10,832 bases of DNA, taken from NCBI GenBank assembly GCA_937942405.1, contig CALDEN010000404.1:1-10832 (forward strand), in the 5' to 3' direction. The notes under the pieces were generated by a model. That model had not been told where the DNA came from, made no database searches, and was given only the letters and a program-made list of their open reading frames with translations. A program made the position numbers and the translations under genes. Every line of letters starts with the position of its first letter. Position 1 is the stretch's first letter. This DNA comes from an uncultured Saprospiraceae bacterium (lineage in GTDB: Bacteria; Bacteroidota; Bacteroidia; Chitinophagales; Saprospiraceae). Positions 1 to 10,832 of the stretch are shown here, one piece after another.

Positions 1-3000
1 ATCACTTTAAAGTATTTTTCAAAATCTTGGTTGAAGCATTTGGCGATATAGGTTCCCGCTGGATATTGTTCTATAGATATTGTGGCCTTAGATTCTGACT
101 CTGAGATAGAGGTGCTATGTATGGTCTTTCCTAGGTTATCATAAACCTGAATAGTGACATTTCCAGTAATTGTAAAATTTTGATCAAGTTCTATTACAAT
201 ATTTCCCATGGTAGGATTAGGATATACTTTTATGTTGCTAGGAGATAGATCGTCGACGCTTATGGTTATATCTGCTTCTATGGTAACGACTTCTTCATAA
301 ATACATACAGGATCACTGGAGTCTCTAACGACAACCATATAATCACCCGAAGGTAGATTTTCAAAAACATTGGAGGATACAAATGTTTGTCCACCATCTA
401 TGCTATACTCATACGGTTCTATTCCATTAAAAGCATTGATTGTAAGGCTTCCGTCTGCTAGCTGATTATTACTGGCATTTGATGTGGTGATGTCTGCATT
501 GAGAAAACATATGTTATCACCTATACAGAAATCTTCTGTGGCTTGCCCTCCAAAATCGCCACTATTATATACGAGCGTTTCGCCATTTGCATCTAGGATA
601 GAAAAGTTACCCATCCCATACGAACAGCAGATGCCATCATTGTAAGTATCATTTACGAGTAGTGTAAAGCATGTATTGTCAGCTACACAGATTTCTTTGG
701 TATAAACTTCTACAGTGGGTGTGAGATTGTCAAAGTCTATAATCTCGTTTGTAACAGAGTTAAATAATAACCAAGAAGTCTCTTCAGGGTAGTCATCTGT
801 ATTTATCAGTAATGTAACAAATGTAAAATCCGACTCTAGATCTGTTGTAATGGATGACATGTTGTTGCCTGATACGGCATCTTGTTGATTATTTATATCA
901 GCCAGATTAAGCGTAATTATGTTTCCGGTTTCTTGTAGATTTTCTGTGACTATTATCGGTATTTCTACTTCCTCTGAGTAGGGAATTCCAAAATCATAAT
1001 TAATGGTCTCCACGAGTACGCCATTAGAGATCACTTCTATGATCGTGTTACTAAAGGTATTCTCTCCTAAGTTTTTAATGGTGGCTAGGACCTCTACCAC
1101 GGAGCCACATTTTATTTCACCAAGTTCAGCAGTGATACTTCCTTCTAGAGCATATAGTTTGCTGATGGTCGTCAATAGTGTATCGTTGGGACTATACCCG
1201 TCTGATATGTGAGTGACTGCCGCACCTACCTGATAATCGCCGATGACAGAAAAATCTTGCGGAAGTGTAAATGAATACTCCCCAGTACTTTGTGGAGCTA
1301 GCTCGTCTGTTACAGTTATCGTCTCCACTGCCTGACCATCGACTAGTAGTGAGATTTCAAAATCCTTCATGTCTCTTAAGCCTCTATTTACAATTTTGGC
1401 AGTCACTATTTCAGCATCCGTTAGTGTAGATGAGCTTTGTGGATTGGAGATTTCCTCCACAGCTAGATCAAAATTAGACTTGATATCAGCCCAGAATGAT
1501 ACCCAAGGTCTTGCTTGTTTGATGATCATCTTATCCTCTGCGGTGACCTTGTATTCGATATCCATACCGAATCCTTCGGCTCCGACTACATTGTATAATA
1601 TTTCAAATTCATCATGTATTACTTTGAGGTAATCTCTCATGAGATCTAGGTACTCTTCGCTCATTACGAGTTCTCCGTTAGGCACTAGATTTGAATTTCT
1701 TAATACAAAATAGCCTTCGGCAGGATCTTGATTTAAAAGAATTTCTTCAGGTATGGAATTTTCATCGGGATTTGTAATTAGTGATTCTCCTACTTGTGTA
1801 TTTAGATAGAAAGTATTATCTGTCGAGTATATCGGATCTAAACTTACTCCTACACCATTGGACTTTTCCTCTTGATAGTTGGGGTGACAGAGTAAACCCA
1901 TCGCAGCGATATAGTGGTCTACTCTATAGAAATCTCTTTCTTCAAAGGCTCTAAAATTCCAGATACTTGCATACACTTGTTTGACAGATTTAGAGATATG
2001 ACCTTCGTCTAGATACTGAGTCTTAGAAGTATATAGCCCGGCACCACTAAATCCAGGTAAGTCTTCATTATTTGTACTAGATCTAACCCGTACTGCGGTT
2101 CCTTCTGGAAAGGCATCATGCATGTCTTGAAGATCATCGAGCATCCACTGAGGCATATTTGCAGCTCTGATCTCTTTTCTAAAATCACTAAGGTCTTCTA
2201 TCCGCGTCTCTAGATCGGTAATAAACATCGGGTCACTGATCATCTCTTCTACCTTTTGGTAAAAACCATTGAACTTCATGAATTCGTCATAGTAATAAAA
2301 AGGGATACCGAATCCGTCAGGAATGGTTCCTTCTGGAAAACCAAAAGTCCGCATAGTAGCTACATTAGAACACTTAGCTCCGAATGCCGTAGACATTGTA
2401 AAATCGATTTCGTCTAATGGGAGTATCTCCGTCTGTGTAAGATCTCTGTCTGGAATCTGCTCCTCAGTCGGGCGTAATTTATCGAACCAGTCATTAACCT
2501 CATCCAGTGTGGCTTCTCTTATTTCGTATCTATCTTGTTCTACTTTATAGTATATGTACTTTCCGATGAGAGAAGCGATCGAGTCCACAGCTAAAGGTTC
2601 ACGTATATATGCATTAGGTACATCGTCTTGTATGGCACGTAGGTTTACATGAGATAACGGTGTTTGGATGACGGATGTAATTATACCACCTACACGTGGC
2701 AATGAATTAGGCAGTACATCATAGATAACGATATCTCGTGATCCTGGATTTTCGTCCAGTTGCATCTGTCTAAAATATCCAAAACCTTCCGCTTGGTGGA
2801 ATGGTAAAAAATCTACATCTGAAAATATGTCAGACTCTAGATCTACGGTGATTCGTGAATCTACAAAGTCGTCTTTGTAAATATTTTGATAATCGTCTTC
2901 ACCGACATCTGCTATAAAATGCTTAAAGTTGTTTTGTAGATAGGGCATATTAGCAGCCAATAGTTCAAATGTCCGCTGTGTATGTGTAAATGTAAATGAG

Positions 3001-3701
3001 CTCCCAAATGAATAGTTCATCGAGTAAGTTCCTATTACGCCCGATGGTAATATCTCATTGGGGTTGTATACGATCTCACCTGTAACCGTATTATCGGAGT
3101 TACTGAGATTAAGTGTAGCGATAAAATCGGCATGTATATAATGTGTCTTGCTATTTACAAAGTATACTTCTGGATTGTCTGAATCTTGATTAACGATTAC
3201 AAATTTTACAAACTCTTGATTATTTAGAAATGGAGCCCAAGGGATATTATTATTTATAACTCCCAGTTCGGAGTAGATCTCGTAGCTGTTTATAGATGTA
3301 GTGCCGTCCAGGAAAGAAATCGGGTCGGCATAGTTTAAAGGCGATTGTGTAGGTAAGTCATTAAATTCTGTAATATCATCTACACCATCACCGTCCGTAT
3401 CATCGGGATCAGCAATACTATGTGCTGTTATCTTATAGCTGGTAACAGGAAATGCAGCCAGTGGCTCAGAAACATACATCGTACCATCCACACCCAGGGT
3501 CATGGAAGTTATCGACTCATAAGCTAGATCAGGGGCATGTCGAGCGGTAAGAAGATAATACTTGTCAGCATCCCCGTCTATTTCTAACTGAACTTGTCCA
3601 TAAGTATTTACATCATAGCTCAGAATAGGAACATTCTGTGCAAAACAGAAATGATAAAAACATATTAAAATCAGGACTAGGTAAAATTTTGCTTTGATCA
3701 T
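1..3701 (-). CDS. Secreted PEP/pyruvate dikinase-like (glucan water dikinase-like) protein with T9SS sorting domain, 3' end cut by window edge
   Basis: The frame is open from ATG at 3701 down to the window edge: 1233 full codons plus two bases, no stop. Order: signal peptide (residues 1-22, ending CFA before QN); calcium-binding-type Asp repeat D98-PDDTDGDGVDD; phosphohistidine swivelling domain with TPLSHVNLRA (H351); ATP-grasp domain of the PPDK N-terminal type (about 430-735) with GAKCSN (K443), VRVRSSTNNED (R540), an ASIWNFRAFEERDFYR segment near 578, D714/E716 and QARPW (729-733). CARDB-like beta repeats follow from about 745. A Cys-rich module (about 960-1060, with DYPEETSW and NDGICCSYG) is of a kind common in secreted Bacteroidota enzymes. 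Then come a SprB-like segment and a T9SS type A sorting domain starting at KVYPNP (K1158). Only a few residues should be missing. The family normally transfers phosphate from ATP through the histidine. No PEP-binding barrel is visible, so the architecture resembles glucan water dikinase. The exported location makes the real reaction unknown. Its link to the sugar locus is unproven. Confidence 0.9.
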   Translation of the reverse strand, partial: MIKAKFYLVLILICFYHFCFAQNVPILSYDVNTYGQVQLEIDGDADKYYLLTARHAPDLAYESITSMTLGVDGTMYVSEPLAAFPVTSYKITAHSIADPDDTDGDGVDDITEFNDLPTQSPLNYADPISFLDGTTSINSYEIYSELGVINNNIPWAPFLNNQEFVKFVIVNQDSDNPEVYFVNSKTHYIHADFIATLNLSNSDNTVTGEIVYNPNEILPSGVIGTYSMNYSFGSSFTFTHTQRTFELLAANMPYLQNNFKHFIADVGEDDYQNIYKDDFVDSRITVDLESDIFSDVDFLPFHQAEGFGYFRQMQLDENPGSRDIVIYDVLPNSLPRVGGIITSVIQTPLSHVNLRAIQDDVPNAYIREPLAVDSIASLIGKYIYYKVEQDRYEIREATLDEVNDWFDKLRPTEEQIPDRDLTQTEILPLDEIDFTMSTAFGAKCSNVATMRTFGFPEGTIPDGFGIPFYYYDEFMKFNGFYQKVEEMISDPMFITDLETRIEDLSDFRKEIRAANMPQWMLDDLQDMHDAFPEGTAVRVRSSTNNEDLPGFSGAGLYTSKTQYLDEGHISKSVKQVYASIWNFRAFEERDFYRVDHYIAAMGLLCHPNYQEEKSNGVGVSLDPIYSTDNTFYLNTQVGESLITNPDENSIPEEILLNQDPAEGYFVLRNSNLVPNGELVMSEEYLDLMRDYLKVIHDEFEILYNVVGAEGFGMDIEYKVTAEDKMIIKQARPWVSFWADIKSNFDLAVEEISNPQSSSTLTDAEIVTAKIVNRGLRDMKDFEISLLVDGQAVETITVTDELAPQSTGEYSFTLPQDFSVIGDYQVGAAVTHISDGYSPNDTLLTTISKLYALEGSITAELGEIKCGSVVEVLATIKNLGENTFSNTIIEVISNGVLVETINYDFGIPYSEEVEIPIIVTENLQETGNIITLNLADINNQQDAVSGNNMSSITTDLESDFTFVTLLINTDDYPEETSWLLFNSVTNEIIDFDNLTPTVEVYTKEICVADNTCFTLLVNDTYNDGICCSYGMGNFSILDANGETLVYNSGDFGGQATEDFCIGDNICFLNADITTSNASNNQLADGSLTINAFNGIEPYEYSIDGGQTFVSSNVFENLPSGDYMVVVRDSSDPVCIYEEVVTIEADITISVDDLSPSNIKVYPNPTMGNIVIELDQNFTITGNVTIQVYDNLGKTIHSTSISESESKATISIEQYPAGTYIAKCFNQDFEKYFKV

Positions 3702-4011
3702 ACTGTTTCTTTTATGCAATAATGGGGTATTAAGATAAATATCCATCCATTTAATTCATACGTGAATAATTGGTATATGGTTGGTTTATATCCTTAAATT
3801 AAAGGACAAACCTTAAAACTAGGCATAAATCCCAGATTTAAGAGACTTTACACTTTAGGACGACACTTGAGGTGGGAATCAAAGCTGAAAATATATCGCT
3901 TAGTAAGTATCGTTGCACTTTATCATTGCTTATCTAAGAGTCGGCCTTTTAGACATCAATAATCTATTGAGAGGTACTTCGTAACCATATTTATTGTTTC
4001 AGTCTGAGTAG
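3702..4011. other. Intergenic gap between regulator gene and secreted dikinase-like gene
   Basis: These 310 bases hold no convincing open frame on either strand. They should contain the promoter of the minus-strand gene beginning at 3701 and the 3' end of the regulator transcript. I see no T-tract terminator after the regulator stop. The only hairpin near it is a weak 6-bp AT-rich one (TCAATA and TATTGA arms, 3956-3970). No clean Bacteroidota promoter (TTG then TAnnTTTG) is present. The nearest minus-strand match, TAAGGTTTG, has one base too many between TA and TTTG, and overlaps the inverted repeat listed separately. No tRNA or other RNA gene is apparent. Confidence 0.6.
3783..3812. repeat. 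Imperfect inverted repeat upstream of the secreted dikinase-like gene
   Basis: The arms are GGTTTATATCCTT (3783-3795) and AAAGGACAAACC (3801-3812). They pair as GGTTT with AAACC and TCCTT with AAGGA, apart from a small bulge (ATA against C). The repeat lies about 80 bases before the ATG at 3701. It could be an operator for that gene or a 5' leader hairpin. On the minus strand it contains a near-match to the Bacteroidota -7 element. Function is inferred from position only. Confidence 0.4.
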
Positions 4012-5028
4012 TTAGTTATTGTTTAATGTTCGGATGGAATCTAGCTCTACAAGTCTAGTTTCTATCTCTAGGTGTCTGTTATTTGATTTTTCTTTATGGA
4101 TTTGTTGGATTAATAGATTGCAGGCCTTTTTACCCATTTTGCTTCCGGAGTCTTTGATAAAGCTGGTTTTGGGGAAAGTGAGATGAGGATAGAAACCGTC
4201 ACTTATGGAAATTAATGAGATATCTTGTGGTATCCGCTTTCCAAATTTCATTAAACTAAAATGAACCTTGGCTAATATTTCGTCAGACATAGAAAATATG
4301 GCAGTTATTTTTTGATTGTGTTGTAGTATTACAGGCAGTATAGAATCTAGTTCTGAGATATTTACTACAGTTATGATATTTTCTTTTTGGCATTTTTCTT
4401 TGTGATTTTCATGGGCATTGATAAAACCTTTTACGCGTTCGTTTGTGATCGCAATGTCAGGGTTCCCAAAAATCCCCAATATATGTTTGTGTCCATTCTT
4501 TAATAAATGATCTACTGCAGAATAAGAGGCACTTACATTATTTATAGAAACAGAAGGGAATTCACTATTTCGTACTATTTTATCTAGCACTACTGTTTTA
4601 ATATCTGCCATTTGTAGAGACTTTAGATGATCTAGATTACGGGTTTCATATGATGGGCTGATTAAGACACCCTCTACAGCCCATTTGATGCATTGTTGGA
4701 CAATCTTTTTTTCTCTTTTGAGCTTATCTTTTGATATAAAAACAAATAGAGAATATTCCGTACGGTATAAGTATTCATTGATTGCATTAATCATACTGGG
4801 TATATAGAACATATTGATCTCTGGGATGATCAATGCAATAAGGTTTGATTTTTTATTTCTAAAAAAAGAAGAATGAAGATTGACAGAATAGTTAAATTTT
4901 TCTGCGGTTTCTTTTACTCTAGTTTTTGTTTTTTCGCTGATGTCTGGGTGATCCGATAGAGCTCTAGAGATGGTAGAGGGAGATAATTGCAGCATTTTTG
5001 CTAAATCTCTGATTGTGATTCTCTTCAT
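4012..5028 (-). CDS. LacI/GalR-family transcriptional regulator
   Basis: This 338-residue protein has the usual length and layout of LacI-family regulators. A helix-turn-helix covers residues 4-24 (ITIRDLAKMLQLSPSTISRAL), followed by the hinge-helix region with DHPDISEKTKTRVKETAEKFNY. A periplasmic-binding-protein-like effector domain runs from about residue 62 (NLIALIIPEINMFY) to the end, with the typical LLKNGHKHILGIFGNP and RVKGFINAHE segments and a SISDGFYPHLTFPKTSF stretch near the C terminus. The ATG at 5028 opens directly into the helix-turn-helix, which fixes the start. It is divergent from the TonB-dependent receptor gene, with 115 bases between the starts, the standard position for a local regulator that binds the shared control region. 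The effector is unknown; from the neighbouring transporter and glycosidase I infer sucrose or a related alpha-glucoside, or a breakdown product. Repressor or activator cannot be decided from sequence. Confidence 0.95.
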   Translation of the reverse strand: MKRITIRDLAKMLQLSPSTISRALSDHPDISEKTKTRVKETAEKFNYSVNLHSSFFRNKKSNLIALIIPEINMFYIPSMINAINEYLYRTEYSLFVFISKDKLKREKKIVQQCIKWAVEGVLISPSYETRNLDHLKSLQMADIKTVVLDKIVRNSEFPSVSINNVSASYSAVDHLLKNGHKHILGIFGNPDIAITNERVKGFINAHENHKEKCQKENIITVVNISELDSILPVILQHNQKITAIFSMSDEILAKVHFSLMKFGKRIPQDISLISISDGFYPHLTFPKTSFIKDSGSKMGKKACNLLIQQIHKEKSNNRHLEIETRLVELDSIRTLNNN

Positions 5029-5046
5029 TCCTACTAGTTTTCAACA

Positions 5047-5070
5047 GCAACCCGTTGCGGTACGGGTTGC
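5047..5070. promoter_or_regulatory. Candidate LacI-family operator with an extra half-site
   Basis: Bases 5047-5058 read GCAACCCGTTGC, a GCAA-N4-TTGC palindrome with the same half-site spacing as PurR-type operators of the LacI family. A further half-site in the right-hand orientation (GGGTTGC) ends at 5070. An alternative reading is one larger inverted repeat: GCAACCCGT (5047-5055), a 6-base spacer, ACGGGTTGC (5062-5070), 9 of 9 matching. It is GC-rich in an otherwise AT-rich gap. It lies 18 bases before the regulator ATG and 73 before the receptor ATG, so it could control both genes. As RNA the 9-bp form could instead fold in the regulator leader. Confidence 0.6.
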
Positions 5071-5083
5071 GTAAATATAAGAT

Positions 5084-5101
5084 TCAAATTTTAATATTTG
5101 A
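5084..5101. promoter_or_regulatory. AT-rich inverted repeat, possible overlapping divergent promoters
   Basis: TCAAAT (5084-5089) and ATTTGA (5096-5101) form a perfect 6-bp inverted repeat around TTTAAT. On the plus strand it contains AATATTTG, one mismatch from the Bacteroidota -7 consensus TAnnTTTG, with a TTG at 5067-5069 as a loosely spaced -33. On the minus strand it contains AAAATTTG, also one mismatch away. The site could therefore hold the -7 elements of both divergent genes. Both matches are weak and the plus-strand spacing (23 bases) is longer than usual. Confidence 0.3.
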
Positions 5102-5143
5102 TTATTAGTTTCATGTTTTTGAAATACACTAACTATTTAAATT

Positions 5144-7780
5144 ATGAAAAACAAAATTCTACTAATGTTGCTTTTTGCAATATTTTCTACAATTTCATCT
5201 TTTGCCCAAATAACACTAAAGGGTAATGTAGTAGATGATGATGGGACTGCCTTAATTGGAGTATCAGTACTCGACAAGACTTCTAATAATGGTACAATAA
5301 CGGACCTAGACGGAAATTTCGAACTGTCTGGTTTAACTGAAGGATCTACAGTAAGATTATCTTATGTAGGATATGCTTCTCAGGAAATAACATTGACATC
5401 AGATGCAATGCAGACCGTCAACCTCATAATGGGTTTAGATGCAATGGGTTTAGATGAAATAACAGTAACTGGAACAGCTAATCCACGATCTAAGCTTAAG
5501 TCAAGTGTATCAATCACTACTTTAAGAACGGATGATATTGCTTTTTCTACCCCTAGAACGACTGCGGAGATATTTAGAACGATACCTGGTATCAGATCTG
5601 AATCTTCTGGTGGAGAAGGAAATACAAATATTGCGGTAAGAGGAATTCCTATTTCTGCCGGAGGATCTAAGTACCTACAGTTACAAGAGGATGGATTGCC
5701 GATATTTATGTTTGGTGATATCGCATTTGCAACATCTGATATATTCTTAAGAGCAGATCAGACGATCAGCCGTATTGAGGCGATCAGAGGTGGTTCTGCT
5801 TCTACTATGTCGTCTAACTCTCCTGCAGGAATTATAAATTTTATCAGTAAGACTGGAGAAGTTGAAGGAGGAAGTGTTGCAACTACTTTTGGTTTAGATT
5901 ATAATTCAGTAAGAACTGATTTTGAATACGGGGCACCTATCGGAAATGGATTAAGTTTCCACGTTGGTGGGTTCTATAGATCAGGAGAAGGTATCCGAAA
6001 TGCAGGTTATACTGCAAACAAAGGTGGACAGTTAAAAGCAAACTTGACAAAAAGATTTGATAATGGTTACGCCAGAGTTTATTTCAAAACTTTGAATGAC
6101 AGGACTGCTGCTTATATGCCTATGCCTGCTCAAGTATCTGGTACTAATGCGGACCCAGTTTGGGAAAACGTAAGTGCTGATGATGGTTTTGATATTACAA
6201 AGGACACTCCTCATAGTGTCAACCTACAATCGGATTTCGGGATAGGATCATATGGACAGAGAAACAACACTGACTTTGCCGATGGAATGCATCCTAAATC
6301 TAATTCTGTAGGAGCTGAATTTTCTTTCGATATCGGTAACGGATGGAATCTTAAGAATAAAACAAGATATGCAATGAATTCTGGTAGATTCATTTCTCCA
6401 TTTCCATCTGCTTTTGGAACAACTGCGGATATGCTAGGAACCGTATCTGGAGCAACAGGTTTAGATCTTACGGACGCTTCATTAACATACGCACATAATG
6501 GTGAAGCATTTACAGGTGATCTTTTACAAGTCATTCACTCGTTTAATACTGAGCTTGATAATTTCGATAACCTAATGAGTGACTTGAATTTATCTAAGAC
6601 CTTTGATGATAAATTTACTATTAACGCAGGTTTGTTTAAAGGAAATCAAAATATAGAAATGTCGTGGCTTTGGAACTCTTACTTAATGGAAGTGAAAGGT
6701 GACAATGCTGGTTTGGTAGATATTACCCTAGCTGATGGAACTCCTGCTAGTTCTAGCGGTCAGTTTGCATATGGGGTACCTGTATGGGGTAACTGTTGTC
6801 AACGAGGATATAATCTGAACTATGATATAGTAGCACCATATGCTTCTGCAGAAGTTGTGGTTACGGATGCATTTACTGTAGATGCGAGTTTAAGATGGGA
6901 TTTTGGTACAGTAACTGGTTTTGGTTCAGGTCCATCGGTAGGGCCATTGGATGTTAACAACGATGGATCTATAAGTACGATAGAAGAAAATGTAGCTGTA
7001 ATCGATCATGCTAAGAAAAACGTAGTAGACTATGATTATGACTATGTTTCTTATTCTTTAGGTGGTAATTATGCACTGAGTAACTCACAGGCAGTTTTTG
7101 CTAGATTCAGTCAGGGAGCTTCGCCTAAGGCGGATAGAGCAGTAGATCCAGGATCTTCTCTTTTATCTCTCGGAAATCCTAAAGATGTAATTCAACAAGC
7201 AGAACTAGGATGGAAATCTAGATTTAAATCAGGAGGCTTATTTGTAACGGCTTTCTATGCAGCGACAACCGAGGAGGGTGGTTTTGAAGCCACTACTCAA
7301 AAAGTAATCGAGAACGATTATTCTGCTATCGGATTAGAGCTAGAAGGATCATATGCGATTAGTGACTTTGGATTGAGAGGAGCACTTACTTACACTAAAG
7401 CGGAGATTCTAGATAACGAGGCTGGAGATAGACCTACTGCTGGGAATACACCTAGAAGACAACCAGATCTTATGTATAGCATAATGCCTAGTTACACTGT
7501 AGGAAACCATATGCTAGGACTAAGTTTAGTCGGACAGTCTAAATCGTTTGCCCAAGATGGTAATGAGCTTGTAATGCCAGGTTATATGGCGGTTAATGGT
7601 TTTGTTTCTTTTGGAATTACAAAGGGACTTTCTTTATCTATAAACGGTAACAATCTTTTAGATACGATTGGAATTACGGAGTCAGAAGAAGGTGCAATTA
7701 CAGAAGGTCAAATAAATTATCTAAGAGCTAGATCTATTACAGGTAGATCAGTATCTGGAACTTTGAGATATCAATTTTAA
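5144..7780 (+). CDS. TonB-dependent outer-membrane receptor with carboxypeptidase-regulatory-like N-terminal domain, no SusD partner
   Basis: This 878-residue protein would import a ligand, probably an oligosaccharide or disaccharide, across the outer membrane using TonB energy. Residues 1-22 are a signal peptide (ending SFAQ). Residues 23-100 are a CarboxypepD_reg-like domain (LKGNVVDDDGTALIGVSV, then GNFELSGL and YVGYASQEITL). A TonB-box/plug start, DEITVTG, begins at 104. The plug has FRTIPGI, NIAVRGIPI and SRIEAIRGGSASTMSSNSPAG. The rest is a 22-strand-type barrel closing with SGTLRYQF and a terminal Phe. At about 878 residues it is shorter than typical SusC, and no SusD gene follows, so it resembles stand-alone sugar receptors such as the Caulobacter maltose type. 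A canonical EF-hand loop (D603 to E614) and a vicinal Cys pair (C551, C552) sit in putative surface loops. It is the first plus-strand gene after the shared control region, so regulation by the divergent LacI-type protein is likely. The substrate is inferred from neighbours. Confidence 0.95.
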   Translation: MKNKILLMLLFAIFSTISSFAQITLKGNVVDDDGTALIGVSVLDKTSNNGTITDLDGNFELSGLTEGSTVRLSYVGYASQEITLTSDAMQTVNLIMGLDAMGLDEITVTGTANPRSKLKSSVSITTLRTDDIAFSTPRTTAEIFRTIPGIRSESSGGEGNTNIAVRGIPISAGGSKYLQLQEDGLPIFMFGDIAFATSDIFLRADQTISRIEAIRGGSASTMSSNSPAGIINFISKTGEVEGGSVATTFGLDYNSVRTDFEYGAPIGNGLSFHVGGFYRSGEGIRNAGYTANKGGQLKANLTKRFDNGYARVYFKTLNDRTAAYMPMPAQVSGTNADPVWENVSADDGFDITKDTPHSVNLQSDFGIGSYGQRNNTDFADGMHPKSNSVGAEFSFDIGNGWNLKNKTRYAMNSGRFISPFPSAFGTTADMLGTVSGATGLDLTDASLTYAHNGEAFTGDLLQVIHSFNTELDNFDNLMSDLNLSKTFDDKFTINAGLFKGNQNIEMSWLWNSYLMEVKGDNAGLVDITLADGTPASSSGQFAYGVPVWGNCCQRGYNLNYDIVAPYASAEVVVTDAFTVDASLRWDFGTVTGFGSGPSVGPLDVNNDGSISTIEENVAVIDHAKKNVVDYDYDYVSYSLGGNYALSNSQAVFARFSQGASPKADRAVDPGSSLLSLGNPKDVIQQAELGWKSRFKSGGLFVTAFYAATTEEGGFEATTQKVIENDYSAIGLELEGSYAISDFGLRGALTYTKAEILDNEAGDRPTAGNTPRRQPDLMYSIMPSYTVGNHMLGLSLVGQSKSFAQDGNELVMPGYMAVNGFVSFGITKGLSLSINGNNLLDTIGITESEEGAITEGQINYLRARSITGRSVSGTLRYQF

Positions 7781-7832
7781 AAAAATAGTTTTTTATCTAG
7801 TTTTTTCATATGTGAACATTGTTACTTCACAA

Positions 7833-7868
7833 TCGCTATTAGGGTCAACACCCTAATAGCGAATTTTT
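7833..7868 (+). terminator. Strong hairpin terminator after the TonB-dependent receptor gene
   Basis: TCGCTATTAGGGT (7833-7845) pairs perfectly over 13 bp with ACCCTAATAGCGA (7850-7862) around a CAAC tetraloop. A T5 tract follows at 7864-7868. This is the layout of an intrinsic terminator, 52 bases after the receptor stop. Because the same-strand sugar genes continue only 78 bases later, it probably separates two transcripts or acts as a partial terminator that makes receptor mRNA more abundant than the downstream genes. Confidence 0.85.
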
Positions 7869-7877
7869 CAAATAGGA

Positions 7878-7908
7878 GTATTGGACATAAATGATCATTT
7901 CACAATAC
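7878..7908. promoter_or_regulatory. Nested palindrome upstream of the GH100-like gene, possible operator
   Basis: AAATGATCATTT (7889-7900) is a perfect 12-base palindrome. It is flanked by a second inverted pair, GTATTG (7878-7883) and CAATAC (7903-7908), slightly off-centre (5 and 2 spacer bases). It lies after the terminator and 38 bases before the TTG start, where a promoter for the downstream three genes is expected. TAAATTTA at 7911-7918 is one mismatch from the -7 consensus TAnnTTTG, but no well-spaced TTG precedes it. It does not resemble the GCAA-N4-TTGC site upstream of the receptor. Confidence 0.4.
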
Positions 7909-7946
7909 AGTAAATTTATTATCATCATAAAAATTGAATCTAAAGA

Positions 7947-9089
7947 TTGAAAGCTCATTACAAACTTGATTATTGGGAATCTAATTCTTTAGAATTGTTA
8001 AGGAGAGCGACTACCCCTAATGGGATAAAAGCATCTTGTACAGACATTACAAATTATGGTTCTGTATTTACCCGTGATGCTGTAATGGCTGGAATAGCAG
8101 GTCTATTGTATGGGGACACCGTAGTTATAAACGGAATGAAGTCTACCGTAGAAATGTTGTTTAAGACTAAAGGACCGCAAGGTCAGATCGCTTCAAATTT
8201 CAAAATGGTCCATGATGAAGTAGAACATATAAGTTATGGAACTTTAAGCCCAAAAATAGATTCGGCCACTTGGTACCTTGTTGCGATAGGTTTATTAATG
8301 GATAAGGGTATAAAGTATGATCTTGAGTATGTAGAATCTACTATTTTATTGCTAGATGCCTTAGAGTATAATGGCAACGATTTAATGTATATACCTCAGG
8401 GAGGAAACTGGGCCGACGAGTACCCTTACGAGGGATACATTCTTTACGATCAAGTTTTAAGAGCATGGGCTTTAGAGTTACTAGGAAAGCATTTTAAAAA
8501 TGAAACATGGAGCCTTAAATCTGGGGCCATAAAAGAAAAAATTAAAGCTAAGTATTTCAACAAATCGAAAGGATATTACAATTGTACATTCAGGCCATCA
8601 GGAGTAAATGATACATTTGATTTCGCTGCTCATAATTTGTTGGGATTATTGGATTCTCAAATCGAGAGTAAAGAGTATACAAGGTCATTGGATTGGATAA
8701 CAGATAAATTTTTAAGTAAAGGAAATTTGCCCGGTGCTTTTTATCCTGTAATAGATGAGGAACATCCCAAATGGGGATTACTATCTAATTTTCATTTATT
8801 TGATTTTAAGAATAAACCTCACCATTATCACAACGGCGGCATATGGTTTATCTGGCTTGGGTGGTTTGCATTAGTATTGCATAAGCATGGTAAGTATGAT
8901 GCTCTAAGTCAGTTATGTGATTTAAGTTTCGATCTGTTAAACAAAGTAAAAGACTTTAATTTCGATGAGTACCTAAGTGCTGATACAAAAGAGCCGATGG
9001 GAACTCAGGAGTTATGTTATACAGCCACCGGTATATTATTTCTTTGCAAAACTGCAAAATCAAAAGATAGTCAAATCGATTTATTATAA
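7947..9089 (+). CDS. GH100-like (neutral/alkaline invertase-like) cytoplasmic glycosidase
   Basis: This 380-residue protein has the look of an (alpha/alpha)6-barrel glycosidase, closest in my reading to neutral invertases (GH100). NYGSVFTRDAVMAGIAGLL (36-54) parallels the plant NYDQVFVRDFVPSALAFL segment. PKIDSATWYLV has D105 where the GH100 catalytic Asp lies in VDSGLWW. GGNWADEYPYEGYILYDQ and NGGIWFIWLGWFALVLHKHGK match conserved helices, and FDEYL places E341 where the second catalytic acid is expected. It is shorter than cyanobacterial GH100 enzymes (about 450-460). There is no signal peptide, so hydrolysis would be cytoplasmic, after import by the neighbouring SUT-like carrier. Likely reaction: sucrose to glucose plus fructose, or cleavage of a related alpha-glucoside. 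Automated pipelines might call it an amylo-alpha-1,6-glucosidase. The start is TTG at 7947: an in-frame TAA lies at 7941 and conserved sequence starts by about residue 8, leaving no room for another start. The kinase gene follows after 3 bases. Confidence 0.8.
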   Translation: MKAHYKLDYWESNSLELLRRATTPNGIKASCTDITNYGSVFTRDAVMAGIAGLLYGDTVVINGMKSTVEMLFKTKGPQGQIASNFKMVHDEVEHISYGTLSPKIDSATWYLVAIGLLMDKGIKYDLEYVESTILLLDALEYNGNDLMYIPQGGNWADEYPYEGYILYDQVLRAWALELLGKHFKNETWSLKSGAIKEKIKAKYFNKSKGYYNCTFRPSGVNDTFDFAAHNLLGLLDSQIESKEYTRSLDWITDKFLSKGNLPGAFYPVIDEEHPKWGLLSNFHLFDFKNKPHHYHNGGIWFIWLGWFALVLHKHGKYDALSQLCDLSFDLLNKVKDFNFDEYLSADTKEPMGTQELCYTATGILFLCKTAKSKDSQIDLL

Positions 9090-9092
9090 AGG

Positions 9093-9743
9093 ATGAAGGG
9101 GACGGATAACATTGAGGAAGAATTTAATTTTAAAGACGAGTATTACCTTTTAGGTAAGGCTCTTTGTGAACGTATTATAGATCATACTAATCATTCTTTC
9201 CAAAAAACAGTTATTGTAATCGGAGGCGAATCGGGATGTGGAAAATCTACTACAGCATTTTGTTTAGAAAAAGAATTGATGGCAAAAGGTTTTAACTGCA
9301 CGACGGTACATATGGATTCTTATTTTATTCTTCCTCCTAAAGATAATCATCAAAATAGGATGGAAAGTCTAAATAACGTAGGACCTCATGAACTGGACAT
9401 GCCATTATTAAATGAGCATATAATCGCTTTTAAATCAAATAAAAAAAACATTACCATTCCTGTGGTAAATTACAGGGAAAATATTTTTTCTGAAAAGGAT
9501 TTAGATTTATCGAATACTGAGGTATTGATAATAGAAGGAGTATATTCTTTTTTGCTAAAAAACATAGATCACAAAATATTTTTAAGCAGAACCTATCGCG
9601 AAACTTTTCAAAACCGTATCAAGCGAACAAGAGAGGATTATGATCCATTGATAGAATTGGTTTTAGAAATAGAGCATAAAATTGTGAGTCCTTTGATTGA
9701 TAAAGCAGATTTTGTAATTGACAAAAACTATTCTATCAAGTAG
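9093..9743 (+). CDS. P-loop kinase of the uridine kinase/phosphoribulokinase family, possible sugar kinase
   Basis: This 216-residue protein has the usual size and motifs of the uridine kinase-like family. Walker A is GESGCGKS (G45-S52, K51). The DSYF motif begins at D75, where uridine kinases bind substrate. A GPHELDMPLLNEHI segment parallels their HP-x-AFD-x2-L region but has EL in place of the usual AF. VVNYRENIF (Y127, R128) matches the Y-x8-R-like lid entry. VLIIEGVYSF (E148) is the Walker B-like strand, and RIKRTREDY is the Arg-rich lid. It starts 3 bases after the GH100-like stop, with AAAGG directly abutting the ATG, so the pair is surely co-transcribed and may be translationally coupled. 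No deoxynucleoside or pyrimidine-salvage gene is nearby. Its place between a sugar hydrolase and a sugar transporter suggests it phosphorylates a sugar product, filling the usual place of a fructokinase or glucokinase, but this is inference. A true uridine kinase cannot be excluded. Confidence 0.8.
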   Translation: MKGTDNIEEEFNFKDEYYLLGKALCERIIDHTNHSFQKTVIVIGGESGCGKSTTAFCLEKELMAKGFNCTTVHMDSYFILPPKDNHQNRMESLNNVGPHELDMPLLNEHIIAFKSNKKNITIPVVNYRENIFSEKDLDLSNTEVLIIEGVYSFLLKNIDHKIFLSRTYRETFQNRIKRTREDYDPLIELVLEIEHKIVSPLIDKADFVIDKNYSIK

Positions 9744-9774
9744 GCACTACTTGTGGAGTTTAATCTAAAATAAT

Positions 9775-10832
9775 ATGTTGAAAAAAACCAAGTTGAGTTT
9801 CTGGCAAATTCTAAATATGAATGTCGGTTTTTTTGGAATTCAATATAGTTTTGGATTGCAACAAAGTGCCGTAACGCCTATTTATGATTTTCTCGGAGCC
9901 GCTCCAGATCAGATTCCATTACTACATCTAGCTGGTCCCGTTACGGGTCTGATCGTCCAGCCGATAATCGGTGCGATGAGTGATAAGACTTGGAGTCCTA
10001 AATTTGGAAGAAGAAAACCGTATTTTTTGATCGGTGCGATATTGTGTAGTCTTACATTATTGGCTTTTCCGTTTAGTAGTTCGCTATGGATGGCAGCAGG
10101 TCTATTATGGATTTTAGATGCGGGAAATAATACGGCTATGGAACCGTATCGAGCCTTAATTGCAGATCAGCTTATAGAGAAACAGCAACCCTTAGGGTTT
10201 CAGATGCAGAGTTTTTTTACGGGCTTAGGCCAAACCTTATCTAATCTATCTCTCTTTATTTTCCCCCTTATCATTATAGGCAAGACAGGATCCTTGCCTA
10301 CATGGGTATATGCCTCCTTTTTCCTTGGTGCGTTTTGTTCCATTGCTTCTATACTATGGAGCATGAGTAAGACCGAGGAAATACCTCCTACAGAAAATGA
10401 GTTAGCTAAGTTGAGAAGTGAGAAACGCAGCGTTTGGGGTCCGTTAGTAGAAATATTCCTAGCTATAAAAGTCATGCCACGTGTAATGTGGCAGTTGGCA
10501 TTGGTTTACTTGTTTCAATGGTATGCACTTTTTTGTTATTGGCAGAATTCATCTAAGAGTATAGCACTCTCTGTGTGGAATGCAACACCTGCCAGTGACG
10601 AGCTAGCTTATAGTCAGGCTGTAAGTTGGTCAGGTCTGGTTAATGGATGGTATAATATTGTTACTTTTTTGGTCGCTTTTATATTAGTAGGATTTGCCAA
10701 TAAATATAAGCCCAAATATGTGCACGCTATTTGTTTGTTAATAGCTGCACTTGGGTTTTTAGCCTTTCCTCATATAGCAGACAAGAATTTGCTTTTCTTT
10801 GCAATAACGGGATTCGGTATTGGCTGGGCTAG
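9775..10832 (+). CDS. GPH/SUT-type sugar (sucrose/maltose) MFS transporter, 3' end cut by window edge
   Basis: The frame is open from ATG at 9775 to the window edge: 352 full codons plus two bases. About nine full membrane segments and the start of a tenth are visible, for example 17-35, 50-68, 83-101, 105-122, 142-162 and 167-185. The loop after segment 2 carries SDKTWSPKFGRRKPYF (S69 to F84), the GRR(R/K)P motif of the GPH and plant SUT families. Segment 4 holds LDAGNNTAMEPYRAL (114-128), closely matching the SUT motif LDxxNNxxxxPxRAL. The last visible residues, FGIGWA, are where family members usually continue into segment 10. It should move a disaccharide such as sucrose or maltose with protons across the inner membrane. 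It lies 31 bases after the kinase stop with no terminator or Shine-Dalgarno sequence seen, so it is probably the third gene of the operon. About 100 or more residues are missing. Confidence 0.88.
   Translation, partial: MLKKTKLSFWQILNMNVGFFGIQYSFGLQQSAVTPIYDFLGAAPDQIPLLHLAGPVTGLIVQPIIGAMSDKTWSPKFGRRKPYFLIGAILCSLTLLAFPFSSSLWMAAGLLWILDAGNNTAMEPYRALIADQLIEKQQPLGFQMQSFFTGLGQTLSNLSLFIFPLIIIGKTGSLPTWVYASFFLGAFCSIASILWSMSKTEEIPPTENELAKLRSEKRSVWGPLVEIFLAIKVMPRVMWQLALVYLFQWYALFCYWQNSSKSIALSVWNATPASDELAYSQAVSWSGLVNGWYNIVTFLVAFILVGFANKYKPKYVHAICLLIAALGFLAFPHIADKNLLFFAITGFGIGWA

Follow-up and report, generated by a model that had tools for sequence, protein, structure and literature searches.

What does a protein that is built like an ATP-consuming dikinase do outside the cell? 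The question is raised by a contig of an uncultured Saprospiraceae bacterium (assembly GCA_937942405.1, contig CALDEN010000404.1), of which positions 1 to 10,832 were analysed (10,832 nucleotides, hereafter the window). It begins with the gene of an exported dikinase-like protein (3..3701, minus strand, as are all features of this protein given below). ATP-driven phosphorylation is taken as an intracellular process, ATP-using enzymes are unexpected outside the cell, and we know of few exported bacterial kinases. We propose, with a probability of roughly 0.6, that the window protein is an active dikinase working outside the cell, which would transfer phosphate to a surface or extracellular acceptor. 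The initial annotation had left the choice between phosphorylation and mere binding. Catalysis is now favoured, because H351 and the ATP-site residues are invariant across the window's own class and the other exported classes, the latter at about 16–28% identity. If this is true, a widespread and strictly conserved exported dikinase with phosphatase or nucleotide-transporter partners would open extracytoplasmic phosphorylation in Bacteroidota to direct tests.

Domain order and export signals

The visible 1233 amino acids (the C-terminus is clipped, as the contig ends before the stop codon) open with a leader peptide (residues 1–21, 3639..3701; boundary ...CFA|Q22 placed by eye), and the CFA|Q site, as read by eye, is consistent with the Q-rule for Bacteroidetes signal peptides (described in the abstract of PMC5837995). 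An FN3-like beta-sandwich (residues 23–100, 3402..3635) and an alpha/beta N-terminal domain (residues about 140–290, 2832..3284) follow, with a DTDGDGVDD stretch between them that by eye resembles a calcium-binding repeat. Next come a swivelling phosphohistidine domain (residues 294–397, 2511..2822), whose H351 (codon 2649..2651) is the expected phospho-carrier, and an ATP-grasp domain of the PPDK_N type (residues 422–739, 1485..2438) with K443, R540, D714, E716, Q729 and R731. The remainder comprises a CARDB domain assigned by Pfam (residues 745–827, 1221..1469), a SprB-like repeat below the cut-off (residues 1072–1106, 384..488) and a type A sorting domain of the type IX secretion system (T9SS; residues 1159–1233, 3..227), for which PF18962 and TIGR04183 both score above their cut-offs. 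A leader and a C-terminal Por_Secre_tail, the two marks of T9SS type A cargo, are both present, and PF18962 is reported in 115 of 120 listed homologues. The export signals named by the initial annotation are supported in this way, and the protein is predicted to leave the cell via Sec and T9SS, probably to be fixed at the surface.

The His swivel lies N-terminal to the ATP-grasp domain and no phosphoenolpyruvate (PEP)/pyruvate barrel is present, as seen by Pfam, NCBIfam and structure comparison, so that the domain order read initially is borne out. Both parts expected of the PPDK-type ATP-grasp/dikinase superfamily were found, the PPDK_N fold with its K, R, DxE and Q site and the swivel with its conserved His. 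In the AlphaFold model (mean pLDDT 87) the ATP-grasp domain matches solved dikinases, the best match being rifampin phosphotransferase (Rph), and the swivel matches Rph as well. By sequence the closest solved relatives are recorded as PEP synthases, and the Rph equivalog model NF041857 reaches 39.2 bits in the window protein against a cut-off of 999.

Catalytic residues of the exported relatives

Of 7998 candidates scored in a search with the window protein, 3499 were relatives at E ≤ 0.001, and 120 of these were listed. We distinguish the window's own class (t1), an exported class of 626–660 amino acids (t2) together with its group t2b of about 810 amino acids, and an exported class of about 970 amino acids (t3). 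The swivel precedes the ATP-grasp domain throughout, and a heuristic applied to proteins starting with M found a hydrophobic leader in 109/120 (t1), 102/115 (t2b) and 114/119 (t3). The catalytic part was matched in 64 of 395 Bacteroidota genomes, many of these matches being, to judge by their length and the part matched, ordinary PEP synthases.

H351, K443, R540, D714, E716, Q729 and R731 are invariant in all 120 close t1 homologues. Among t1 open reading frames in the loci (n = 82), H and R are kept in 82/82, K in 81 (one X), and D, E, Q and R in 81/81 readable sequences. The same seven residues occur in 8/8 rows of t2; in t2b (n = 120) H, K and R are found in 120/120 and D, E, Q and R in 118/118 readable sequences. 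Class t3 retains all seven in 120/120, counted in an alignment of t3 proteins alone, and in 10/10 rows of the locus alignment; E639 is not conserved in this class. Identity to the window protein is 23–28% for t2 and t2b and 16–21% for t3. The residues assigned initially, including the QARP motif, lie where they had been placed, and H351 and the ATP-site residues are intact across homologues. The initial annotation had staked its claim on the fold and on these residues; the AlphaFold model has both the swivel and the ATP-grasp fold, no readable homologue has lost H351 or an ATP-site residue, and the claim stands on both counts.

Six further residues of the N-terminal domain (P157, Y180, N183, H190, F193 and N213) are common to t1, t2 and t2b, in 43–45 of 46 rows. 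In a tree of the ATP-grasp domain (50 rows, three t2b rows left out), a split supported at 100/99 sets the exported classes apart from the PEP synthases of Bacteroidota; support is 100/100 for t3, 99/97 for t1 and 86/88 for t1, t2 and t2b together. These values are to be read with the program's warning of long branches, which was given for both trees. Two Streptomyces rows stand on a long branch and their position is unsure.

Single loci show further arrangements of these genes. A t1 and a t2b gene lie tail to tail in L052:9131-15453, and L056 holds two tandem t1 copies. L066, titled Euryarchaeota archaeon, has a t1 gene and is probably a mis-binned contig.

An exported phosphatase beside t1

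The gene neighbourhood of t1 was compared in 80 loci from named genome records (the best 80 of 93), which were divided by the taxon name of the record into 36 of Saprospiraceae/Chitinophagales and 44 others, the latter mostly titled Flavobacteriales, Flavobacteriaceae or Bacteroidetes. Phosphatase counts include only loci with at least 650 bases upstream (27/36 and 40/44, respectively). Outside Saprospiraceae/Chitinophagales, 35 of the 40 loci carry an exported gene of the histidine phosphatase superfamily at most 1 kb upstream of t1; of the other five, L097 has the gene directly downstream and four (L072, L079, L081, L101) have none. PF00300 was detected with E 1e-12 (L064) and 1.1e-10 (L065). 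Phosphatase motifs are intact in 34–37 of 37 t1-linked proteins and a hydrophobic leader precedes the domain in 37/37, a regular-expression search finding a Q-rule site in 17/37 and a lipobox in 4/37.

Forty of the 80 loci were followed into their genomes (24 non-Saprospiraceae, 16 Saprospiraceae). A close phosphatase clade (at least 159 bits) occurs in 20 of the 24 non-Saprospiraceae genomes, and weaker relatives (below 93 bits) in 10 of the 16 Saprospiraceae genomes. In 19 of the 24, t1 is the sole PPDK_N protein found (the completeness of these genomes is not stated), and several of the 24 are small, 1.2–2.4 Mb. Phosphatase aside, no neighbour family recurs in more than 9 of the 80 loci, and the Saprospiraceae loci yielded no conserved neighbours.

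Genes beside t2 and t3

In t2, a gene for a DUF4956 membrane protein adjoins the dikinase gene in convergent orientation in 7/7 loci, six of which come from one genus (L120–L126; relatives by phmmer; PF16316 at E 2e-19 in L121). For t3 (n = 12 loci), an exported 'YPIDGY' protein adjoins the dikinase in 11/12, a second member of the same broad family is found in 10/12, and a TLC/NTT transporter with HEAT repeats in 9/12, one of the nine being cut by the end of its contig so that just the C-terminal part is present. Pfam was applied to the L132 copies, where both exported neighbours are Beta-lactamase2 proteins (PF13354) and the transporter combines PF03219 (E 1e-8) with HEAT, and to the L131 transporter, which lacks PF03219 at E 0.01 despite being a 365-bit relative of the transporter query. 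The t3 dikinase, two PF13354-type proteins and the TLC/NTT-HEAT transporter form a conserved cluster in L127–L137. At one t3 cluster, in a genome from the same family as the window, lies a leader-bearing histidine phosphatase gene (L131:16076-16630, minus strand; 1/20 loci).

Class t3 is present in 12 of the 395 Bacteroidota genomes (at least 509 bits; next match 54). The transporter clade, delimited at the bit-score gap between 339 and 243, occurs in 10/395 genomes, all of them with t3; G183 and G199 are the t3 genomes without it, and in G178 the transporter lies about 150 kb from t3. The co-occurrence gives a Fisher p of 2.9e-18, which ignores relatedness and overstates independence because the genomes, ten in four families (f1, f5, f17, f24), are related. 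At E ≤ 1e-6 the transporter query matched 41/395 genomes, all 12 with t3 and 29 without, and therefore the association with t3 concerns the transporter clade and not NTTs at large. The finding suggests an answer to how ATP could be supplied outside the cell for t3. The functions of NTT-HEAT fusions are called unknown in a passage of PMC5381601; the dikinase reading would suggest a role for these transporters.

Proposed mechanism

On sequence grounds, the neighbour genes of the relatives support phosphate chemistry. In the mechanism that we envisage, the ATP-grasp domain would bind ATP and H351 on the swivel would receive the beta-phosphate, with AMP and Pi being released. The swivel would then rotate to the N-terminal alpha/beta domain, the candidate acceptor site with its conserved H190, where an acceptor would take the phosphate, probably a glycan or protein on the surface or outside the cell. 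In the non-Saprospiraceae orthologues the exported histidine-superfamily phosphatase may act on the product, the two enzymes serving as writer and eraser.

Several results weigh against this reading, above all for the window's own group. A phosphatase beside t1 was found in 0/27 Saprospiraceae/Chitinophagales loci, and none of this family was found in the window's genome (G000, 65% complete). The transporter query matched 0/40 t1 genomes, an empty result that taken by itself is no evidence of absence, as against 41/395 Bacteroidota genomes with the same query, and gave no match in G000 or G045, so that no ATP source was found for the window's clade. The swivel matched no family above the cut-off. 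For the N-terminal domain (pLDDT 93.5) Foldseek returned no PDB match at E ≤ 0.001 that could name an acceptor, and, since the VIA rows for this domain span chiefly model residues 1–78, the alpha/beta part is left without a named fold, which is no proof of a new one.

A wider picture is offered tentatively, at somewhat less than an even chance: Bacteroidota might run extracytoplasmic phosphorylation by exported dikinases of reversed order, comprising a T9SS surface class (the window protein) with a phosphatase as eraser, a class with DUF4956, and a class with TLC/NTT-HEAT for ATP supply and two beta-lactamase-fold hydrolases.

Alternative explanations

Plant alpha-glucan, water dikinase (GWD) and phosphoglucan, water dikinase (PWD) have the swivel before a PPDK-family ATP-grasp domain and an LSHV-type His motif, as does the window protein; they carry carbohydrate-binding modules and are located in plastids, whereas the window protein has a leader and a T9SS tail. 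The window protein could be a true GWD/PWD-type enzyme whose extracellular substrate is an alpha- or beta-glucan, phosphorylated to make it accessible to hydrolases in the way that GWD treats starch granules. We consider this unlikely. Besides the shared order, it is favoured by a search of the 395 genomes with PF22973 (GWD1_pHisD), in which six of the eight matches at E ≤ 0.01 are t2/t3 swivels, the other two being stretches with stops. All eight matches, however, are below the cut-off, the window protein itself has none, and PEP-utilizers is equally weak: of 42 aligned members, 15 match GWD1_pHisD and 10 match PEP-utilizers at E < 1 (best 0.011 and 0.0018, respectively), with bits, where shown, below the cut-offs. 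The phosphatase partner of the relatives recalls the pairing of GWD with the phosphatase SEX4, given in a passage of PMC12892837, which also states that no experimental structure of GWD is known. Against a glucan substrate, Pfam found no carbohydrate-binding domain in the window protein at E ≤ 1 (the library's coverage of the right module being unchecked), and none of the 30 largest t1 neighbour clusters looks like a glycoside hydrolase on visual inspection of the opening stretch of one sequence per cluster. The GWD-like domain order noted initially is supported; a relationship to GWD in particular is not, nor is a polysaccharide acceptor. Streptomyces proteins without an evident signal peptide share the order, so that by itself it is no pointer to glucan.

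The chance is slimmer still that the ATP-grasp and swivel folds have been reused for binding, in a pseudoenzyme or adhesin. Extracellular ATP is scarce and FN3-like, CARDB and SprB modules are frequent in adhesins, but a mere binder would hardly account for the retention of every catalytic residue in t1, t2, t2b and t3, nor for the phosphate- and nucleotide-handling genes clustered with the relatives.

We give slightly less weight again to scavenging, in which phospho-H351 would lose its phosphate to water or through the partner phosphatase, turning extracellular ATP into AMP and phosphate. The phosphatase found outside Saprospiraceae would fit, and the several small genomes there may be phosphate-frugal; simpler exported nucleotidases exist, however, and an acceptor is suggested by the conserved, separate N-terminal domain and its H190.

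A PEP synthase or PPDK relocated outside the cell is highly improbable and was rejected: the window protein shares with these enzymes the ATP-grasp and swivel folds and the catalytic residues, and its closest solved sequence relatives are recorded as PEP synthases, but it is exported, has no barrel and shows the reversed order, and the ATP-grasp tree, for which the program warns of long branches, separates the exported classes from Bacteroidota PEP synthases.

Comparison with known systems

With Rph, HpeHI and PpsAB, the dikinase proposed here has the phosphohistidine swivel in common, and Rph is its best structural match in the ATP-grasp domain. These systems differ in that their ATP-grasp domain comes first or on a separate chain, in their acceptor domains, and in that Rph and the two-component small-molecule dikinases are not known to be exported. 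As in the window protein, they have an acceptor domain and no PEP barrel (according to a passage of PMC12167813). CotH kinases have a different kinase fold, and the Pel loci with CotH, DUF4956 and polyphosphate polymerase are tied to the exported dikinases by the DUF4956 neighbour only, for t2 and not for the window's class. A CotH-like kinase gene together with DUF4956 is described for Gram-positive Pel loci in a passage of PMC7112168.

Among the papers listed by literature searches (lists of at most 5–20 entries), no title or beginning of an abstract describes a dikinase that is exported or carried by T9SS; one listed paper, PMC12560110, contains both 'pyruvate phosphate dikinase' and 'type IX secretion'.

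PEP/pyruvate-binding proteins on Streptomyces plasmids (NZ_CP109451.1, NZ_CP108236.1) consist of these three parts, arranged alike, with the TPLSH motif and the N-domain His (H190) kept. They differ in having no evident signal peptide and in adjoining an ATP-grasp protein and a major facilitator superfamily (MFS) transporter, and in both plasmids (L143:5464-7476, L144:5362-7368) the gene stands in a possible biosynthetic cluster.

Other genes of the window

The window's other five genes are uninformative on the function of the dikinase, because at E ≤ 1e-10 only the MFS gene has a counterpart, in 1 of the 80 t1 loci. They occupy 4012-10830 and encode a LacI regulator, a TonB receptor, a GH100 invertase-like protein (PF12899), a uridine-kinase-like protein and a GPH sucrose-symporter-like MFS protein. 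By its gene content this part resembles a sucrose-use locus, in which the PRK/udk-type kinase may act on sugar.

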